From positions 1 to 23,228 of the IMG/VR virus record IMGVR_UViG_3300036851_000423: a DNA stretch of 23,228 bases. One strand, 5' to 3'. Shown here one piece after another: positions 4,154 to 9,868 of the stretch. The notes under the pieces were generated by a model that saw only the letters and a list, made by a program, of their open reading frames with translations, did no database searches and had not been told where the DNA came from. The DNA is from a virus. Made by a program: the position numbers and the translations under genes. The number at the start of each line of letters is the position of its first letter. The stretch's first letter is position 1.

Positions 4154-4582
4154 TTACCGGCCTTCTGAAACGTGGATAGATTCGGATGAATGAGCCATGA
4201 TCGCGCAAAGTAAGGCCCTGGCTTCATCCACCTTGCCGGCGTCCAGGAGGCTTATGGCCTCCGTTGATTTTCTGTAAACGACCCCGTGCCGGTCACGCAT
4301 GAACGGCGCGGCAGCAATGAGGTCTTCGTCCGCACGTTTTTGCTCGGAGCCTTCCATCGGGTGGAGATCCCGATCCCATGCCGAAGGCAAGGTGGCGACA
4401 AGGCGCCGTTTGCCGTTCACCATCGCCCATACCCCGCCGCGGAACTTGAACCAAGGGCCGGGCGTATGAGCCCCGTTGGCGATTCGGAGCGACTTGTCCG
4501 TGGCGATGTCTTCCGCGATGTATTGGGCGGTTCGTTCGTCTTCTCCGTCGTCTTGCATCCACCGCTCGATCTTTGGCTTCAT
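4154..4582 (-). CDS. Phage hypothetical protein with HTPGPW and LIAAAP motifs
   Basis: A 142-residue protein with GGAGG before its ATG. The middle contains the pattern HTPGPWFKFRGGVWAMVNG (about residues 39-57) and DLIAAAPFM (about 87-95), which is typical of a widespread group of small phage proteins, usually encoded near replication or accessory genes and of unknown function. The N-terminus is acidic and helical (ERWMQDDGEDERTAQYIAED); the C-terminal part AISLLDAGKVDEARALL resembles a short helical repeat. Upstream is copy D of the two-hairpin element, and the ribosome binding site is part of an 18-base sequence shared exactly with the gene at 5284. Confidence 0.75.
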   Translation of the reverse strand: MKPKIERWMQDDGEDERTAQYIAEDIATDKSLRIANGAHTPGPWFKFRGGVWAMVNGKRRLVATLPSAWDRDLHPMEGSEQKRADEDLIAAAPFMRDRHGVVYRKSTEAISLLDAGKVDEARALLCAIMAHSSESIHVSEGR

Positions 4583-4589
4583 GGCTATA

Positions 4590-4607
4590 CCTCCATACGC
4601 TCGTTTT
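4590..4607 (-). promoter_or_regulatory. Shared start-associated ribosome binding sequence, copy 1
   Basis: On the minus strand reads AAAACGAGCGTATGGAGG, with the GGAGG placed 7 bases before the ATG at 4582. The identical 18 bases occur at 5294-5311 before another gene. It is longer than a ribosome binding site needs to be, and its GAGCGTATGGA core is complementary to a segment of the leader RNA at 5374-5384. Confidence 0.7.
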
Positions 4608-4671
4608 ATGGGCCGACTTGGGACGGCCCCTGTGCATTACGGCGCCCATGTTGGCGCGCCGCCCTCTGCAT
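4608..4671 (-). repeat. Two-hairpin intergenic element, copy D
   Basis: Minus-strand hairpin one has six pairs (arms 4656-4661 and 4640-4645), then GTAATGC, then hairpin two with six perfect pairs (arms 4624-4629 and 4610-4615) around loop TCCCAAGT. It lies between the gene ending at 4672 and the start at 4582, immediately before the shared ribosome binding sequence. Confidence 0.75.
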
Positions 4672-4935
4672 CTAGATATTTCCTCCATAGACAAACTCGC
4701 CGCAGTCCTCGCAATTCTGCTTCTCTTCATGTTCCCCAAAAAATATGGGAACGGGAACTAACGCTGAGTTTTGTGCATCATGGAAACAACATCCCTGCGC
4801 AGGAAACACGTCAAGCATTTTCTTTTGACCGCAAGGAATACAATAGACGGCGCCGTGATAGATGTATCCGTCTAAGCCAGGACCGCCACTTAATGCGTGT
4901 TTTAAAAACACCCAGTCAGTGTTTTCGATTTTCAT
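4672..4935 (-). CDS. Small zinc-ribbon-like protein
   Basis: An 87-residue protein starting MKIENTDWVFLKHALSGGPG. It has two Cys pairs, YCIPCGQKK (about 31-39) and NCEDCGEF (about 74-81), with GCCFHD between them, which suggests a zinc ribbon or a related metal-binding fold. GGAGG lies 8 bases before the ATG, and the ATG overlaps the preceding stop as ATGA, so it is coupled to the gene at 4932-5141. No family recognised. It is soluble, with no signal or membrane segment. Confidence 0.7.
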   Translation of the reverse strand: MKIENTDWVFLKHALSGGPGLDGYIYHGAVYCIPCGQKKMLDVFPAQGCCFHDAQNSALVPVPIFFGEHEEKQNCEDCGEFVYGGNI

Positions 4936-5141
4936 ACGCCGTTCCTCCTTTTGTCGTAGGCCCGCATCAGCTCCGTGACCCTGTCCATGAATTCCCGTTT
5001 CCAGCGCACGTCTTTGCTGCCCAGCGACGCCCGCACTAGGGTGTTGATGGTGTCTATCTCGATACCCTTATCCAGTTCCCATTCTTGGGAGAGAACCACG
5101 CGGTTCCCATCGACAACCAAGGCCACACAGTAGGAGCTCAT
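4932..5141 (-). CDS. Small hypothetical protein
   Basis: A 69-residue ORF, MSSYCVALVVDGNRVVLSQE and so on, with a predicted beta-hairpin start and a helical, basic C-terminus (FMDRVTELMRAYDKRRNGV). Its ATG overlaps the stop of the previous ORF (ATGA at 5138-5141) and its stop overlaps the next start in the same way, giving a chain of three coupled small genes. The same frame is open upstream to an ATG at 5465 with its own ribosome binding site, which would give a 177-residue protein; I prefer the short form because the upstream part is full of inverted repeats. Function unknown. Confidence 0.6.
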   Translation of the reverse strand: MSSYCVALVVDGNRVVLSQEWELDKGIEIDTINTLVRASLGSKDVRWKREFMDRVTELMRAYDKRRNGV

Positions 5142-5284
5142 GGCCGCACCGCCGCCGGCCGCAACACCGGCCGCCCCGTGGGCGTCTTCCATTTCACGAG
5201 CTGCCACAACAACCGATGCCCGAACGGTGTCTTTACGAGGTTCGGAAACAGCACATACATTTGATCCGCAATGAACTGAATCAT
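5138..5284 (-). CDS. Small basic hypothetical protein, first gene of the coupled trio
   Basis: A 48-residue ORF, MIQFIADQMYVLFPNLVKTP and so on, ending in a basic, Pro-rich tail. The N-terminal half is hydrophobic and aromatic, the rest basic, so peripheral membrane binding is conceivable but not shown. GGAGG lies 9 bases before the ATG within the 18-base sequence shared with the gene at 4582. The stop forms ATGA with the next start. It is the first short ORF after the leader RNA and operator at 5325-5422, which makes it the probable first target of that control. Confidence 0.55.
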   Translation of the reverse strand: MIQFIADQMYVLFPNLVKTPFGHRLLWQLVKWKTPTGRPVLRPAAVRP

Positions 5285-5293
5285 GGTCGTTTC

Positions 5294-5311
5294 CCTCCAT
5301 ACGCTCGTTTT
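5294..5311 (-). promoter_or_regulatory. Shared start-associated ribosome binding sequence, copy 2
   Basis: The same 18 bases as at 4590-4607, placed before the ATG at 5284. A weaker relative (GAGCGTATCGGAGG, minus strand, 5471-5484) precedes an ATG at 5465. The core can pair over 13 positions (12 Watson-Crick, one G-U) with the leader segment at about 5374-5386. Confidence 0.7.
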
Positions 5312-5322
5312 GGACTGCATGG

Positions 5323-5345
5323 AATGTAACGTAATTGACGTTACA
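5323..5345 (-). promoter_or_regulatory. Operator (TAACG-N7-CGTTA), second copy
   Basis: Positions 5325-5345 form a perfect inverted repeat with 8-base arms and a 5-base centre. Its TAACG-N7-CGTTA core matches the operator at 2973-2989 in sequence and spacing. On the minus strand the end overlaps TACATT (5323-5328), at the same place where the other copy overlaps TATACT. It lies between the leader terminator and the gene at 5284. Confidence 0.6.
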
Positions 5346-5354
5346 CTTTTGGAC

Positions 5355-5422
5355 AAAAAAACTCCCCTGGGGTGAGCGTATGGAAGTCGGACACGAGTCC
5401 GACACCACAAGGCCCCAGGGGA
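5355..5422 (-). terminator. Leader hairpin with U-tract (attenuator-like) and exposed anti-Shine-Dalgarno segment
   Basis: On the minus strand a perfect 10-pair outer stem (5413-5422 with 5363-5372) encloses a perfect 7-pair inner hairpin (5397-5403 with 5386-5392, 4-base loop) and is followed by seven T (5361-5355). This resembles an intrinsic terminator. The unpaired 3' side between the stems contains TCCATACGCTC (5384-5374), complementary to the ribosome binding sequence of the genes at 5284 and 4582. Confidence 0.55.
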
Positions 5423-5490
5423 AATTATTGTTGGACCGACCACAAACAAAAAAACCCGTGTCCATAAAGACCTCCGATACGCTCGGGGTC

Positions 5491-5519
5491 AGTTTAACCC
5501 CAGGACCTATTTTTGTCAA
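5491..5519 (-). promoter_or_regulatory. Sigma70-like promoter, minus strand
   Basis: TTGACA (5519-5514), 17-base spacer, TAAACT (5496-5491). The expected start is near 5484, so the transcript would begin with the leader that contains the GAGCGTATCGGAGG site, the ATG at 5465 and the terminator-like hairpin. The -35 is a full consensus match, the -10 four of six. Confidence 0.6.
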
Positions 5520-5638: not shown

Positions 5639-5668
5639 TTGACAAGTGCCTCGTCACGGACTTATGCT
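5639..5668 (+). promoter_or_regulatory. Sigma70-like promoter, plus strand
   Basis: TTGACA (5639-5644), 18-base spacer, TATGCT (5663-5668). The -35 is a full match, the -10 four of six. It points into the plus-strand packaging/head module and would first transcribe the structured stretch at 5675-5797. Confidence 0.6.
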
Positions 5669-5797: not shown

Positions 5798-5822
5798 TTT
5801 CTGGGAACAGGTGCAAGCACTT

Positions 5823-5850
5823 GTACGCAGTTGCAAGCAATTGTTATCAG
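5823..5850 (+). repeat. 28-base direct repeat, copy 1
   Basis: Begins GTACGCAGTTGCAAGCA and matches 6045-6072 at 23 of 28 bases. It contains the palindrome TTGCAAGCAA, and a CAAGCACTTG palindrome lies just upstream. An iteron or operator role is possible. Confidence 0.45.
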
Positions 5851-6022: not shown

Positions 6023-6715
6023 GTGCAGGGGGGAAAGGGAGTGTGTACGCAATTGCAAGCAGATGATAGCAGCAACGATCCGAACGCGGAAGCCAAAGAG
6101 GGCCTTGAGGCCCAGACTAAGTCGGCCAAACACTACCGAGAGCCGAATGGGAAGAATACGCCGCCCAGTAAGATTGCCGCAGTGTTGGCCCTCAGTAGCC
6201 TGGGCATGAGCCAGAACGCCATTGCGAAAGTCGAGAAGATGTCGCCGCAAACCGTGGCGGTGTTGGTGAAACAGGGGGATCAACATAATCCGGCGTTGGT
6301 AGAGAGAATAAAAAAGAGTTTGGCCGCGCATTGGTACGTGACGGCGGAGCGCGGATTGCAGCACATTACCGACGATAAACTTGAAAACAGTTCAGCTGCG
6401 CAACTCGCGGTAATTTCGTCGATAGCGACGGAGAAGGCTTTGCTTGCCGACGGTAAAGCCACGGCGCGGATGGAGTTCGTAGGCATGGCAGACCAGGCGT
6501 TGCAAGAGGAGATCATGGCCCTAGAGTCACAAGTAGCAGCGATGAAGAAAAACGCAATTACCGTCGATGCGGGTACACAACTGGGTACACAAGACGTTGC
6601 ATCGTCGTCGGAAGTAGACTCTTGCACGGAAGAGCGGATGGTCGAAAACGTTGCAGAGGCCCCCGGTGAGCCCCCCTCTCCCCCTCCCCCATCAGGATCG
6701 ATCCATGCCGTATAG
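6023..6715 (+). CDS. Helix-turn-helix protein, candidate small terminase subunit
   Basis: A protein of up to 230 residues. Residues about 50-84 (KIAAVLALSSLGMSQNAIAK and on to VAVLVKQ) form a helix-turn-helix, followed by a helical stretch with ATEKALLADGKAT (135-147), a charged segment and a Pro/Ser-rich tail (PPSPPPPSG). HTH proteins with this build, upstream of a large terminase, are often small terminase subunits that recognise the packaging site; here 1.6 kb and six small genes intervene, so the call is tentative, and a transcription regulator is equally possible. Starts: GTG 6023 (GAGGGG abuts it) or GTG 6041 (G-rich site 7 bases upstream); the N-terminal 40 residues are low in structure. 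Confidence 0.65.
   Translation: MQGGKGVCTQLQADDSSNDPNAEAKEGLEAQTKSAKHYREPNGKNTPPSKIAAVLALSSLGMSQNAIAKVEKMSPQTVAVLVKQGDQHNPALVERIKKSLAAHWYVTAERGLQHITDDKLENSSAAQLAVISSIATEKALLADGKATARMEFVGMADQALQEEIMALESQVAAMKKNAITVDAGTQLGTQDVASSSEVDSCTEERMVENVAEAPGEPPSPPPPSGSIHAV
6045..6072 (+). repeat. 28-base direct repeat, copy 2
   Basis: Second copy of the repeat at 5823-5850. It overlaps the first codons of the HTH gene, so the HTH protein could bind here to control itself or to mark a packaging or replication site; this is inference. Confidence 0.45.
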
Positions 6716-8328: not shown

Positions 8329-9868
8329 GAGCCCGGAAGCGAAACTTGGGCGTCTCAAGAAGCTCCAGGAGCTGGAAGAGGCGCTCCGGGCTCGAAGGCA
8401 GGAACTCGAACGGCGGTACAGGAACCACTCGATTCGGTATTACGCGGTCAAGCGGGATACGGCCACGGGCAAGTGGAAGTTCCGCGGGCCGCACAGACAG
8501 CAGGATCTTTGTCATCGGGACAAGTCCCTTATCCGCGTGGCCTCTGGCGGAAACAGGTCAGGGAAGTCCACCTTCGGGATCAACGAGGACGTGGCGCATG
8601 CCCTCGGCTATCGGCCCTGGCTGCCGGAAACGGACCCGGACCACAAGATCCCCGTCCAGGTCCCGAATAAGGGGCTGATCTGCGGGGAGTCCTTCGGGGA
8701 GCAGGTCAAAAAGGTTTTGGTGCCCAAGCTCCTGGGCGACCCCGAGACGGGGACACCGGGAGCGGTGCCCGCGGACGAGGTGGCTTGGACCAAGAAGAAC
8801 CCGGCGGGCGTGACCAACGAGATTCACCTGAAGAACGGGTCCTCGATCTTTCTTCAGTCGTATGAGCAAGAGGTTGATCTTTTCGAGTCCGCGGACTACG
8901 ACTGGTTTCATCCCGACGAGCCGCCGCCGCGGCCGATTTGGGTGGCGGTCCAGCGCGGCCTCGCGGACCGCCGGGGGCGGACATGGCTGACCATGACGCC
9001 CCTGAAAGAGCCCTGGATCTTCGACGAGATCTACAGCCGCAAAGACACCGGGCTCTACTACTTCGACATCGAGGACAACCTCGATTTTGGGTTGACACGG
9101 GAAGGGATCGACCAGTTTTCACGGTCTTTGACAGAGGATGAGAAGGAAGCCCGGCTGCGGGGCCGGTATTTCCACCTGACGGGCCTCGTGTACAAGGCGT
9201 ACTCGAAGCCACACCGGCTCAAGCGTTTCAAGATTCCAAAGCATTGGGGCCTTTGGTTTCACGTGGATACGCACCCGCGGACGCCGCACCACGCGGTCTG
9301 GATCGCGGTTTCGCCGGAGCAGAAGAAATACGTGTGCGGCGAGCTCAAGAACCGGCACCCCAACAATTCCGTGCCGGCCATGATCGAGTCGATCAAGGTC
9401 TATGAGAAGACCATGTTCGACCGGCGGCCAGACGAAATCGTGCGGCTAATAGAGCCTGGCGCCCAGGCGCCGGACCCACTCCAGGATGGGCGGTCCATTT
9501 GGGACGAGTTCGCGGACAAGGGCCTGCGGTGCAGGCCGGGCTCCAAGCAGCGAGATTCAGGGATTTTGCTCTTTCAAAAGGAGCTGGCGTACGACCCGGA
9601 CCAGGGGATTTACCCCATGATCTTTTTCTTTGATGACCTGGAGGGCGTTCACTTCGAGATGACCCACTATATCTGGGACGACTGGGCCAAGAAGGCGGGC
9701 GAGGGCAAGACCGAGAAGCAGGCGCCCAAGGATAAGAACGATCACTTTATCGAGGGGATTCACCGGATACTTTTGGATGAGCCCTATTGCGCGAACGATT
9801 CAGAGGAAGACGAGGATGAGACGGCTGACGCCGGCATTTCAAGCGTCAATCGGATCACGGGATACTGA
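8303..9868 (+). CDS. terL: Large terminase subunit (packaging ATPase-nuclease)
   Basis: A 521-residue terminase that drives DNA into the capsid and cuts it. Walker A is GGNRSGKST (residues 82-90), Walker B is YDWFHPDEP (199-207), and the coupling motif TMTP lies at 230-233. The nuclease half has the first acidic site in WFHVDTH (Asp322), a second acidic region in RLIEPGA (around 400), and the last conserved Asp in KNDHFIEGIHRIL (about 480). Residues 14-40 form a short coiled coil. The start is a GTG with GAAG 7 bases upstream. The C-terminus is very acidic (DSEEDEDET). It is followed at one base by a small gene and then the portal. Confidence 0.95.
   Translation: MESPSVAVESPEAKLGRLKKLQELEEALRARRQELERRYRNHSIRYYAVKRDTATGKWKFRGPHRQQDLCHRDKSLIRVASGGNRSGKSTFGINEDVAHALGYRPWLPETDPDHKIPVQVPNKGLICGESFGEQVKKVLVPKLLGDPETGTPGAVPADEVAWTKKNPAGVTNEIHLKNGSSIFLQSYEQEVDLFESADYDWFHPDEPPPRPIWVAVQRGLADRRGRTWLTMTPLKEPWIFDEIYSRKDTGLYYFDIEDNLDFGLTREGIDQFSRSLTEDEKEARLRGRYFHLTGLVYKAYSKPHRLKRFKIPKHWGLWFHVDTHPRTPHHAVWIAVSPEQKKYVCGELKNRHPNNSVPAMIESIKVYEKTMFDRRPDEIVRLIEPGAQAPDPLQDGRSIWDEFADKGLRCRPGSKQRDSGILLFQKELAYDPDQGIYPMIFFFDDLEGVHFEMTHYIWDDWAKKAGEGKTEKQAPKDKNDHFIEGIHRILLDEPYCANDSEEDEDETADAGISSVNRITGY

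Follow-up and report, generated by a model that had tools for sequence, protein, structure and literature searches.

A phage operon leader with mutually exclusive predicted folds and complementarity to two downstream ribosome binding sites

The operon of small, mostly unassigned genes that descends from about 5484 on the minus strand of the window, a virus record of 23,228 bases with terminase, portal, head protein and DnaB-like helicase, opens with a leader RNA for which a terminator and an antiterminator are predicted as mutually exclusive folds. The part of the terminator that the 5′ end of the RNA captures in the antiterminator also holds the complement of the ribosome binding sites (RBSs) of two later genes. 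An even chance is given here to the reading that the leader is an intrinsic attenuator whose terminated product would act as antisense RNA on its own new copies and, less surely, on the two later RBSs. In manner, the leader is most likely comparable to the P4 CI and P1 c4 RNAs, without detectable kinship to them. The features are collected in Table 1.

Table 1. Features of the leader and of the operon downstream of it (window coordinates)
Feature	Position	Strand	Description
Sigma-70-type promoter	5491..5519	minus	TTGACA 5519-5514, 17-nt spacer, TAAACT 5496-5491
Near-palindrome GGGGTTAAACTGACCCC	5485..5501		covers the -10 box; sequence reading
seqA, antiterminator 5′ arm GAGCGTATcGGAGGTCtttatGGACACGGGT	5454..5484	minus	first ~30 nt of the RNA
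Leader Shine-Dalgarno (SD) GGAGG	5475-5471	minus	followed by ATG 5465
Terminator	5355..5423	minus	outer stem, inner stem, weak 5-bp helix, 7 U
seqB, anti-SD segment TCCATACGCTC	5374..5384	minus	3′ side of the terminator internal loop
Palindrome TGTAACGTCAATTACGTTACA	5325..5345		between terminator and first gene; second copy 2991-2973
seqC1 AAAACGAGCGTATGGAGG	5294..5311	minus	RBS of ORF 5284; 13 positions complementary to seqB
48-aa ORF (ORF 5284)	5139..5284	minus	first gene after the leader; no family match
69-aa ORF	4932..5141	minus	overlaps the 48-aa ORF; no family match
Twister-P5 ribozyme	4612..4670	minus	directly upstream of seqC2; 49.5 bits (gathering score 37.6)
seqC2 AAAACGAGCGTATGGAGG, second exact copy	4590..4607	minus	RBS of ORF 4582
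142-aa ORF (ORF 4582)	4154..4582	minus	RBS seqC2; weak match to phrog_1273 (function unknown)

Promoter, terminator and antiterminator

The initial annotation had proposed a full-consensus -35 and a good -10 box with a transcript start at about 5484, and both boxes were confirmed by direct reading and a consensus scan, in which the -35 hexamer matched in 6/6 positions and the -10 hexamer in 4/6. The site was the top-scoring one on the minus strand of the region in the promoter scan. Standard spacing places the predicted +1 at G5484, which coincides with the first base pair of the antiterminator, that of G5484 with C5374. In the predicted folds the balance between the two states was tied to this exact nucleotide, since transcripts starting at 5483 or downstream, or at 5486 or upstream, on the minus strand favoured the terminator with at least 98%, so that the start site matters. 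The near-palindrome over the -10 box is a possible repressor operator. Just upstream of the leader promoter, at 5630-5520 (minus), lies a large inverted repeat, CTCCGACGG...CCGTCGGAG around CCATGCGT/ACGCATGG, which folds 2.7 sd better than shuffles. Further upstream, at 5802-5850 and 6044-6072, ten-base units of type TTGYAMGCAR stand in tandem with a spacing of one helix turn and may be an array of sites bound by a replication or repressor protein.

The RBS with ATG at 5465 and the two-part hairpin with seven T, both reported earlier, were found as described. The outer stem (5421-5413/5372-5364) extends to 11 pairs in the MFE structure (5423-5413/5372-5362), the inner stem (5403-5397/5392-5386) has 7 pairs, and the seven T (U in RNA) are at 5361-5355. 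Folding of the terminator hairpin was 4.8 sd below shuffles, and CGCUC of seqB is predicted to be single-stranded in this fold. Another T-run at 5454-5448 was rejected as a terminator, no hairpin preceding it.

The best partner of 5398-5374 was the leader's own 5′ end, 5484-5454. Complementarity of the leader to two genes had been noted before and was borne out, but this strongest partner had been missed. The 5′ arm pairs with 5398-5374 over 8+7+9-10 bp, about 24 base pairs, and the duplex of -38.5 kcal/mol was matched by 2/5000 shuffles of the arm and by 0/5000 shuffles of the rest; in the surrounding 4 kb the terminator alone was stronger. Because the antiterminator recruits the 3′ strand of the inner stem and crosses the outer stem, it excludes the terminator. 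When both folds of the minus-strand RNA were scored they proved near-isoenergetic, with -52.7 kcal/mol for the forced antiterminator and -52.4 kcal/mol for the forced terminator. In a fold series of the growing transcript the antiterminator was dominant with the 3′ end between 5376 and 5356, and once the U-tract was complete the terminator reached parity with it. A mutually exclusive terminator and antiterminator, as expected of an intrinsic attenuator, is present in the predicted folds of the leader. The attenuator suggested in the initial annotation thus has support in silico and is strengthened by an explicit antiterminator that is nearly isoenergetic with the terminator.

As a default, a free 5′ end would catch 5398-5374 first and RNA polymerase would read through. 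With the 5′ end occupied by a 30S subunit at the SD, by a protein or by seqB of a terminated leader, the terminator would form instead, a fold predicted to leave the 5′ end unpaired and to expose that part of seqB which lies in the loop.

Complementarity to two downstream ribosome binding sites

TCCATACGCTC at 5384-5374 is the exact complement of GAGCGTATGGA at 5306-5296 and at 4602-4592, and the pairing of seqB with the two genes spans 13-14 positions with one G-U, in agreement with the complementarity first described (13 positions with one G-U). Among the 38 gene starts in the window, the strongest bare duplexes of seqB were those with the 4582 RBS (-25.6 kcal/mol), with seqA (-25.2 kcal/mol) and with the 5284 RBS (-24.4 kcal/mol), the next gene start reaching -17.1 kcal/mol. 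The 18-mer AAAACGAGCGTATGGAGG is identical at both RBSs, where its flanks are unrelated, and its 8-nt core is also present in seqA. Since the 18-mer holds AAAAC, which is not complementary to seqB, pairing is not the sole cause of the 18-mer.

Pairing in trans through seqB was weaker when the costs of opening were counted, with -6.9 kcal/mol for the terminator hairpin with seqA and -3.9 kcal/mol with the 4582 RBS, and pairing of the hairpin with the 5284 RBS was not predicted on this count. The SD of ORF 5284 lies in a local hairpin of its own, so trans action on this gene is the weakest of the three. The net energies are modest, and among the gene starts the two genes ranked 16 and 19 of 38 and seqA ranked 2; whole-RNA cofold energies did not discriminate among targets. 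An antisense action of the terminated leader on its own operon, as originally suggested, finds a parallel in the layouts of P4 CI and P1 c4, which served as positive controls, but pairing of the terminator hairpin through seqB with the 5284 RBS was not predicted. The companion suggestion for the gene at 4582 agrees with a predicted pairing, the value of which is however unremarkable among the 38 gene starts.

The attenuator with an antisense product can be set out as follows. Terminated copies have passed through the fold in which the seqB loop is exposed and so are the right species for seqA of nascent copies. In trans, their seqB would bind seqA of leaders still being transcribed and raise termination; it would also bind the RBS of ORF 4582 and, less surely, of ORF 5284, with less translation as a result. 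The net outcome would be a negative feedback like that of the P4 CI and P1 c4 RNAs, but exerted on an intrinsic terminator. Cleavage by the ribozyme at 4670-4612, if active, would separate the 4582 message from the leader, which could then reach it in trans only.

The same data could be read as a purely cis-acting attenuator in which the 5′ end and the terminator form the switch, the signal comes from a ribosome or a ligand that occupies the 5′ end, and the copies at 5284 and 4582 are mere RBS duplicates. The helix between seqA and seqB (about 24 bp) far exceeds the match of 13-14 nt with the genes and is enough to account for seqB; the modest trans energies, the hairpin around the 5284 RBS and a repeat longer than its complementary part point in the same direction. 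Yet at the two RBSs the repeat stops sharply after 18 nt, the flanks being unrelated, its 8-nt core recurs in seqA, and P1 and P4 are precedents for exactly such a triple. A cis-only switch is regarded as unlikely, though it deserves consideration.

Less probable again is recognition of GAGCGUAU(n)GGAGG at each of the three sites by a phage RNA-binding repressor or directly by the 30S subunit, which would favour termination at the 5′ end and block translation at 5284 and 4582. This would suit the same element being present at three RBSs and the AAAAC in two of them, which pairing does not explain, and the antiterminator alone would account for the complement in the hairpin. No candidate RNA-binding protein, however, was identified among the family matches of the window genes. 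It is slightly less credible still that the leader is a free-standing sRNA, the operon being transcribed without attenuation from another promoter close to the 5345-5325 palindrome. The terminator is strong, and that palindrome between terminator and first gene is shared with the site upstream of the ribbon-helix-helix (RHH) gene at 2954, but the scan gave no consensus promoter from 5355 to 5284 and an antiterminator would be pointless in a free-standing sRNA.

A complement of at least 11 nt to the SD region of the next gene arose in 0.24% of shuffled leaders. A position-specific search asked for a promoter-like site with an element X in the first 40 nt, then its complement, and later X at an SD with a start codon. 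With at least 8 nt, the layout X...rcX...T-run...X-at-RBS gave 1 match, the leader itself, among 1067 promoter-like sites in 2.39 Mb. A chance origin of the complementarity is unlikely in view of the shuffles and of the other sequence, about 2.4 Mb, in the search. Inverted matches of short length are frequent, X-rcX-X triples of 8 nt free of position rules occurring about every 4 kb and being alone without meaning, but the shuffle tests and the position-specific background make an ordinary terminator after the leader with coincidental complementarity extremely improbable.

Comparison with known RNAs and search for relatives

The classic phage self-silencing antisense RNAs cut from their own message are P4 CI and P1 c4, which belong to one RNA family. 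In P4 immunity, as in the leader, one target copy lies upstream, the antisense lies in a structured RNA, and another target copy lies downstream at an RBS. The P4 8-mer TTCACAGG is at 8651, its complement at 8463 and the second copy at 8384 as TTCACAGGAGG..ATG, within TTCACAGGAGGCTGCCATCATG, an RBS. The middle site is inside a C4-family match (8507-8420) and the first inside an isrK-family match (8692-8615), and the gene downstream of seqC in P4 is kil. The targets of CI RNA are seqA on its upstream side and seqC on its downstream side; pairing with them causes premature termination, and the RNA is released by processing (PMC4825925), whereas the leader RNA would be released by an intrinsic terminator. 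Unlike in P4, seqA is the very 5′ end of the transcript, and there is a second downstream target in the window.

P1 is annotated with promoters and one transcript in the order a1/b1 - c4 - a2/b2 - icd (RBS at b2) - ant1, the last overlapping icd. The window has the same order, with a small ORF that overlaps the next by ATGA. P1 c4 blocks translation around the RBS (PMC12197685). Its complementarity is split between two segments, a′ and b′, whereas the leader has one contiguous segment, of 11-14 nt toward the genes. As in the C4 family, copies of the target flank the antisense on both sides (seqA at 5484, seqB at 5384-5374, seqC at 5306 and 4602), but two separate segments a′ and b′ are not found in the leader. 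The Rfam C4 model RF01695, with scores of 68.8 bits for P1 c4 and 74.9 bits for P4 CI RNA, gave no leader match at E<=10, and none came from the further Rfam models scanned.

IsrK of Gifsy-1 is a short terminated RNA with read-through to the operon mRNA, the short form acts in trans on the long one, and its alternative A and B folds are near-equal in predicted energy (PMC4825925). An intrinsic terminator, read-through into a small ORF and alternative folds are likewise found in the leader, the latter as predicted folds. IsrK activates orf45 translation, whereas the leader segment covers SD sequences and should repress. The isrK model RF01394 recovered P4 as positive control upstream of the CI RNA (60.8 bits) and gave no match to the leader, with an unrelated 10.9-bit match elsewhere in the window. 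Since neither the C4 nor the isrK model matches, the leader is not filed as a member of either family and is a look-alike in layout. In pT181 and pIP501 a choice between terminator and pre-emptor helix is tipped by an antisense RNA on the leader (PMC5703833). That antisense RNA has a separate promoter on the opposite strand in the leader region, whereas here it would be the leader's own 3′ half. The sole promoter-like site nearby on the plus strand, at 5639-5668, points away from the leader, and none opposite the leader was found by the consensus scan, which could miss one.

The leader was not found elsewhere when viral contigs were queried with the terminase, the terminase pair, ORF 5284, ORF 4582, the helicase and three DNA patterns, nor was it found in the genome contigs scanned, in annotated phages or among 295 genomes belonging to one phylum; the leader switch is known from one genome. 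The closest relative found, L125, has 72% terminase identity, and its early promoter has a palindrome over the -10 box and no leader switch. In this promoter, TTGACA...TAGGCT at L125:240-310 (minus), the palindrome reads CATGTAATAGGCTATTACATG and is comparable to GGGGTTAAACTGACCCC in the window; repressors may control the early promoters of this group of phages. Several matches were discarded: 14-mer matches elsewhere had no comparable complementarity upstream; L129 has both 10-mers, but there the promoter is divergent and has operators of the GCGTATACGC type, so that it is not the same thing; and a 12-nt match in L111 lacks the layout of promoter and leader and seems to be a coincidence within coding sequence.

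It is doubtful, though conceivable, that the leader is an immunity-type RNA independent of C4/CI in origin, in which one 22-nt antisense stretch, dependent on termination, attenuates its own leader and blocks two RBSs, one of them freed by a self-cleaving twister ribozyme of this operon. If true, this would suggest that self-directed antisense attenuation evolved more than once, and the leader would offer a simple version of it that can be tested in vitro. The layout of X, complement, T-run and X at an RBS provides a search rule independent of sequence similarity.

Operon genes, ribozymes and candidate operators

Codon statistics favour the frame of the 48-aa ORF, the stop of which overlaps the next ATG (ATGA), and the 69-aa ORF is probably translationally coupled to it. 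A protein of 178 codons from ATG 5465 to 4932 was rejected, its codon statistics over 5284-5142 not being gene-like and the 5284 frame winning there; an open stretch through the leader arises in 16% of shuffles. The 178-codon frame (5465-4932, minus) crosses the terminator and is in frame with the gene at 5141; a read-through fusion by this route is conceivable.

Ribozymes associated with phage genes are known (PMC10085705), and the operon has four Twister-P5 ribozymes on the minus strand (2777-2718, 2672-2618, 4153-4097 and 4670-4612), each between or just before genes, with 49.5-54.5 bits relative to the gathering score of 37.6. The cluster may cut the operon into separate messages.

The palindrome at 5345-5325 is a candidate repressor operator, perhaps with a promoter of its own. 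Its counterpart at 2991-2973, TGTAACGCAACTTGCGTTA, closely precedes the gene at 2954-2778, which is Arc-like (ribbon-helix-helix), and the matching palindromes suggest an RHH repressor that is autoregulated and has a further site ahead of ORF 5284. The neighbouring small ORFs at 3167-3009 and 2954-2778 (minus) have similar ribbon-helix-helix-like sequences, LNLRISEEEHGKLKRLAKRERRSMISMVVWLV and KSLSLRLTEDKKERWKSLAEREHRSLTGFITWLI, and are probably paralogous repressors; the family scan covered ORF 2954-2778 of the two and gave weak Arc-like matches.
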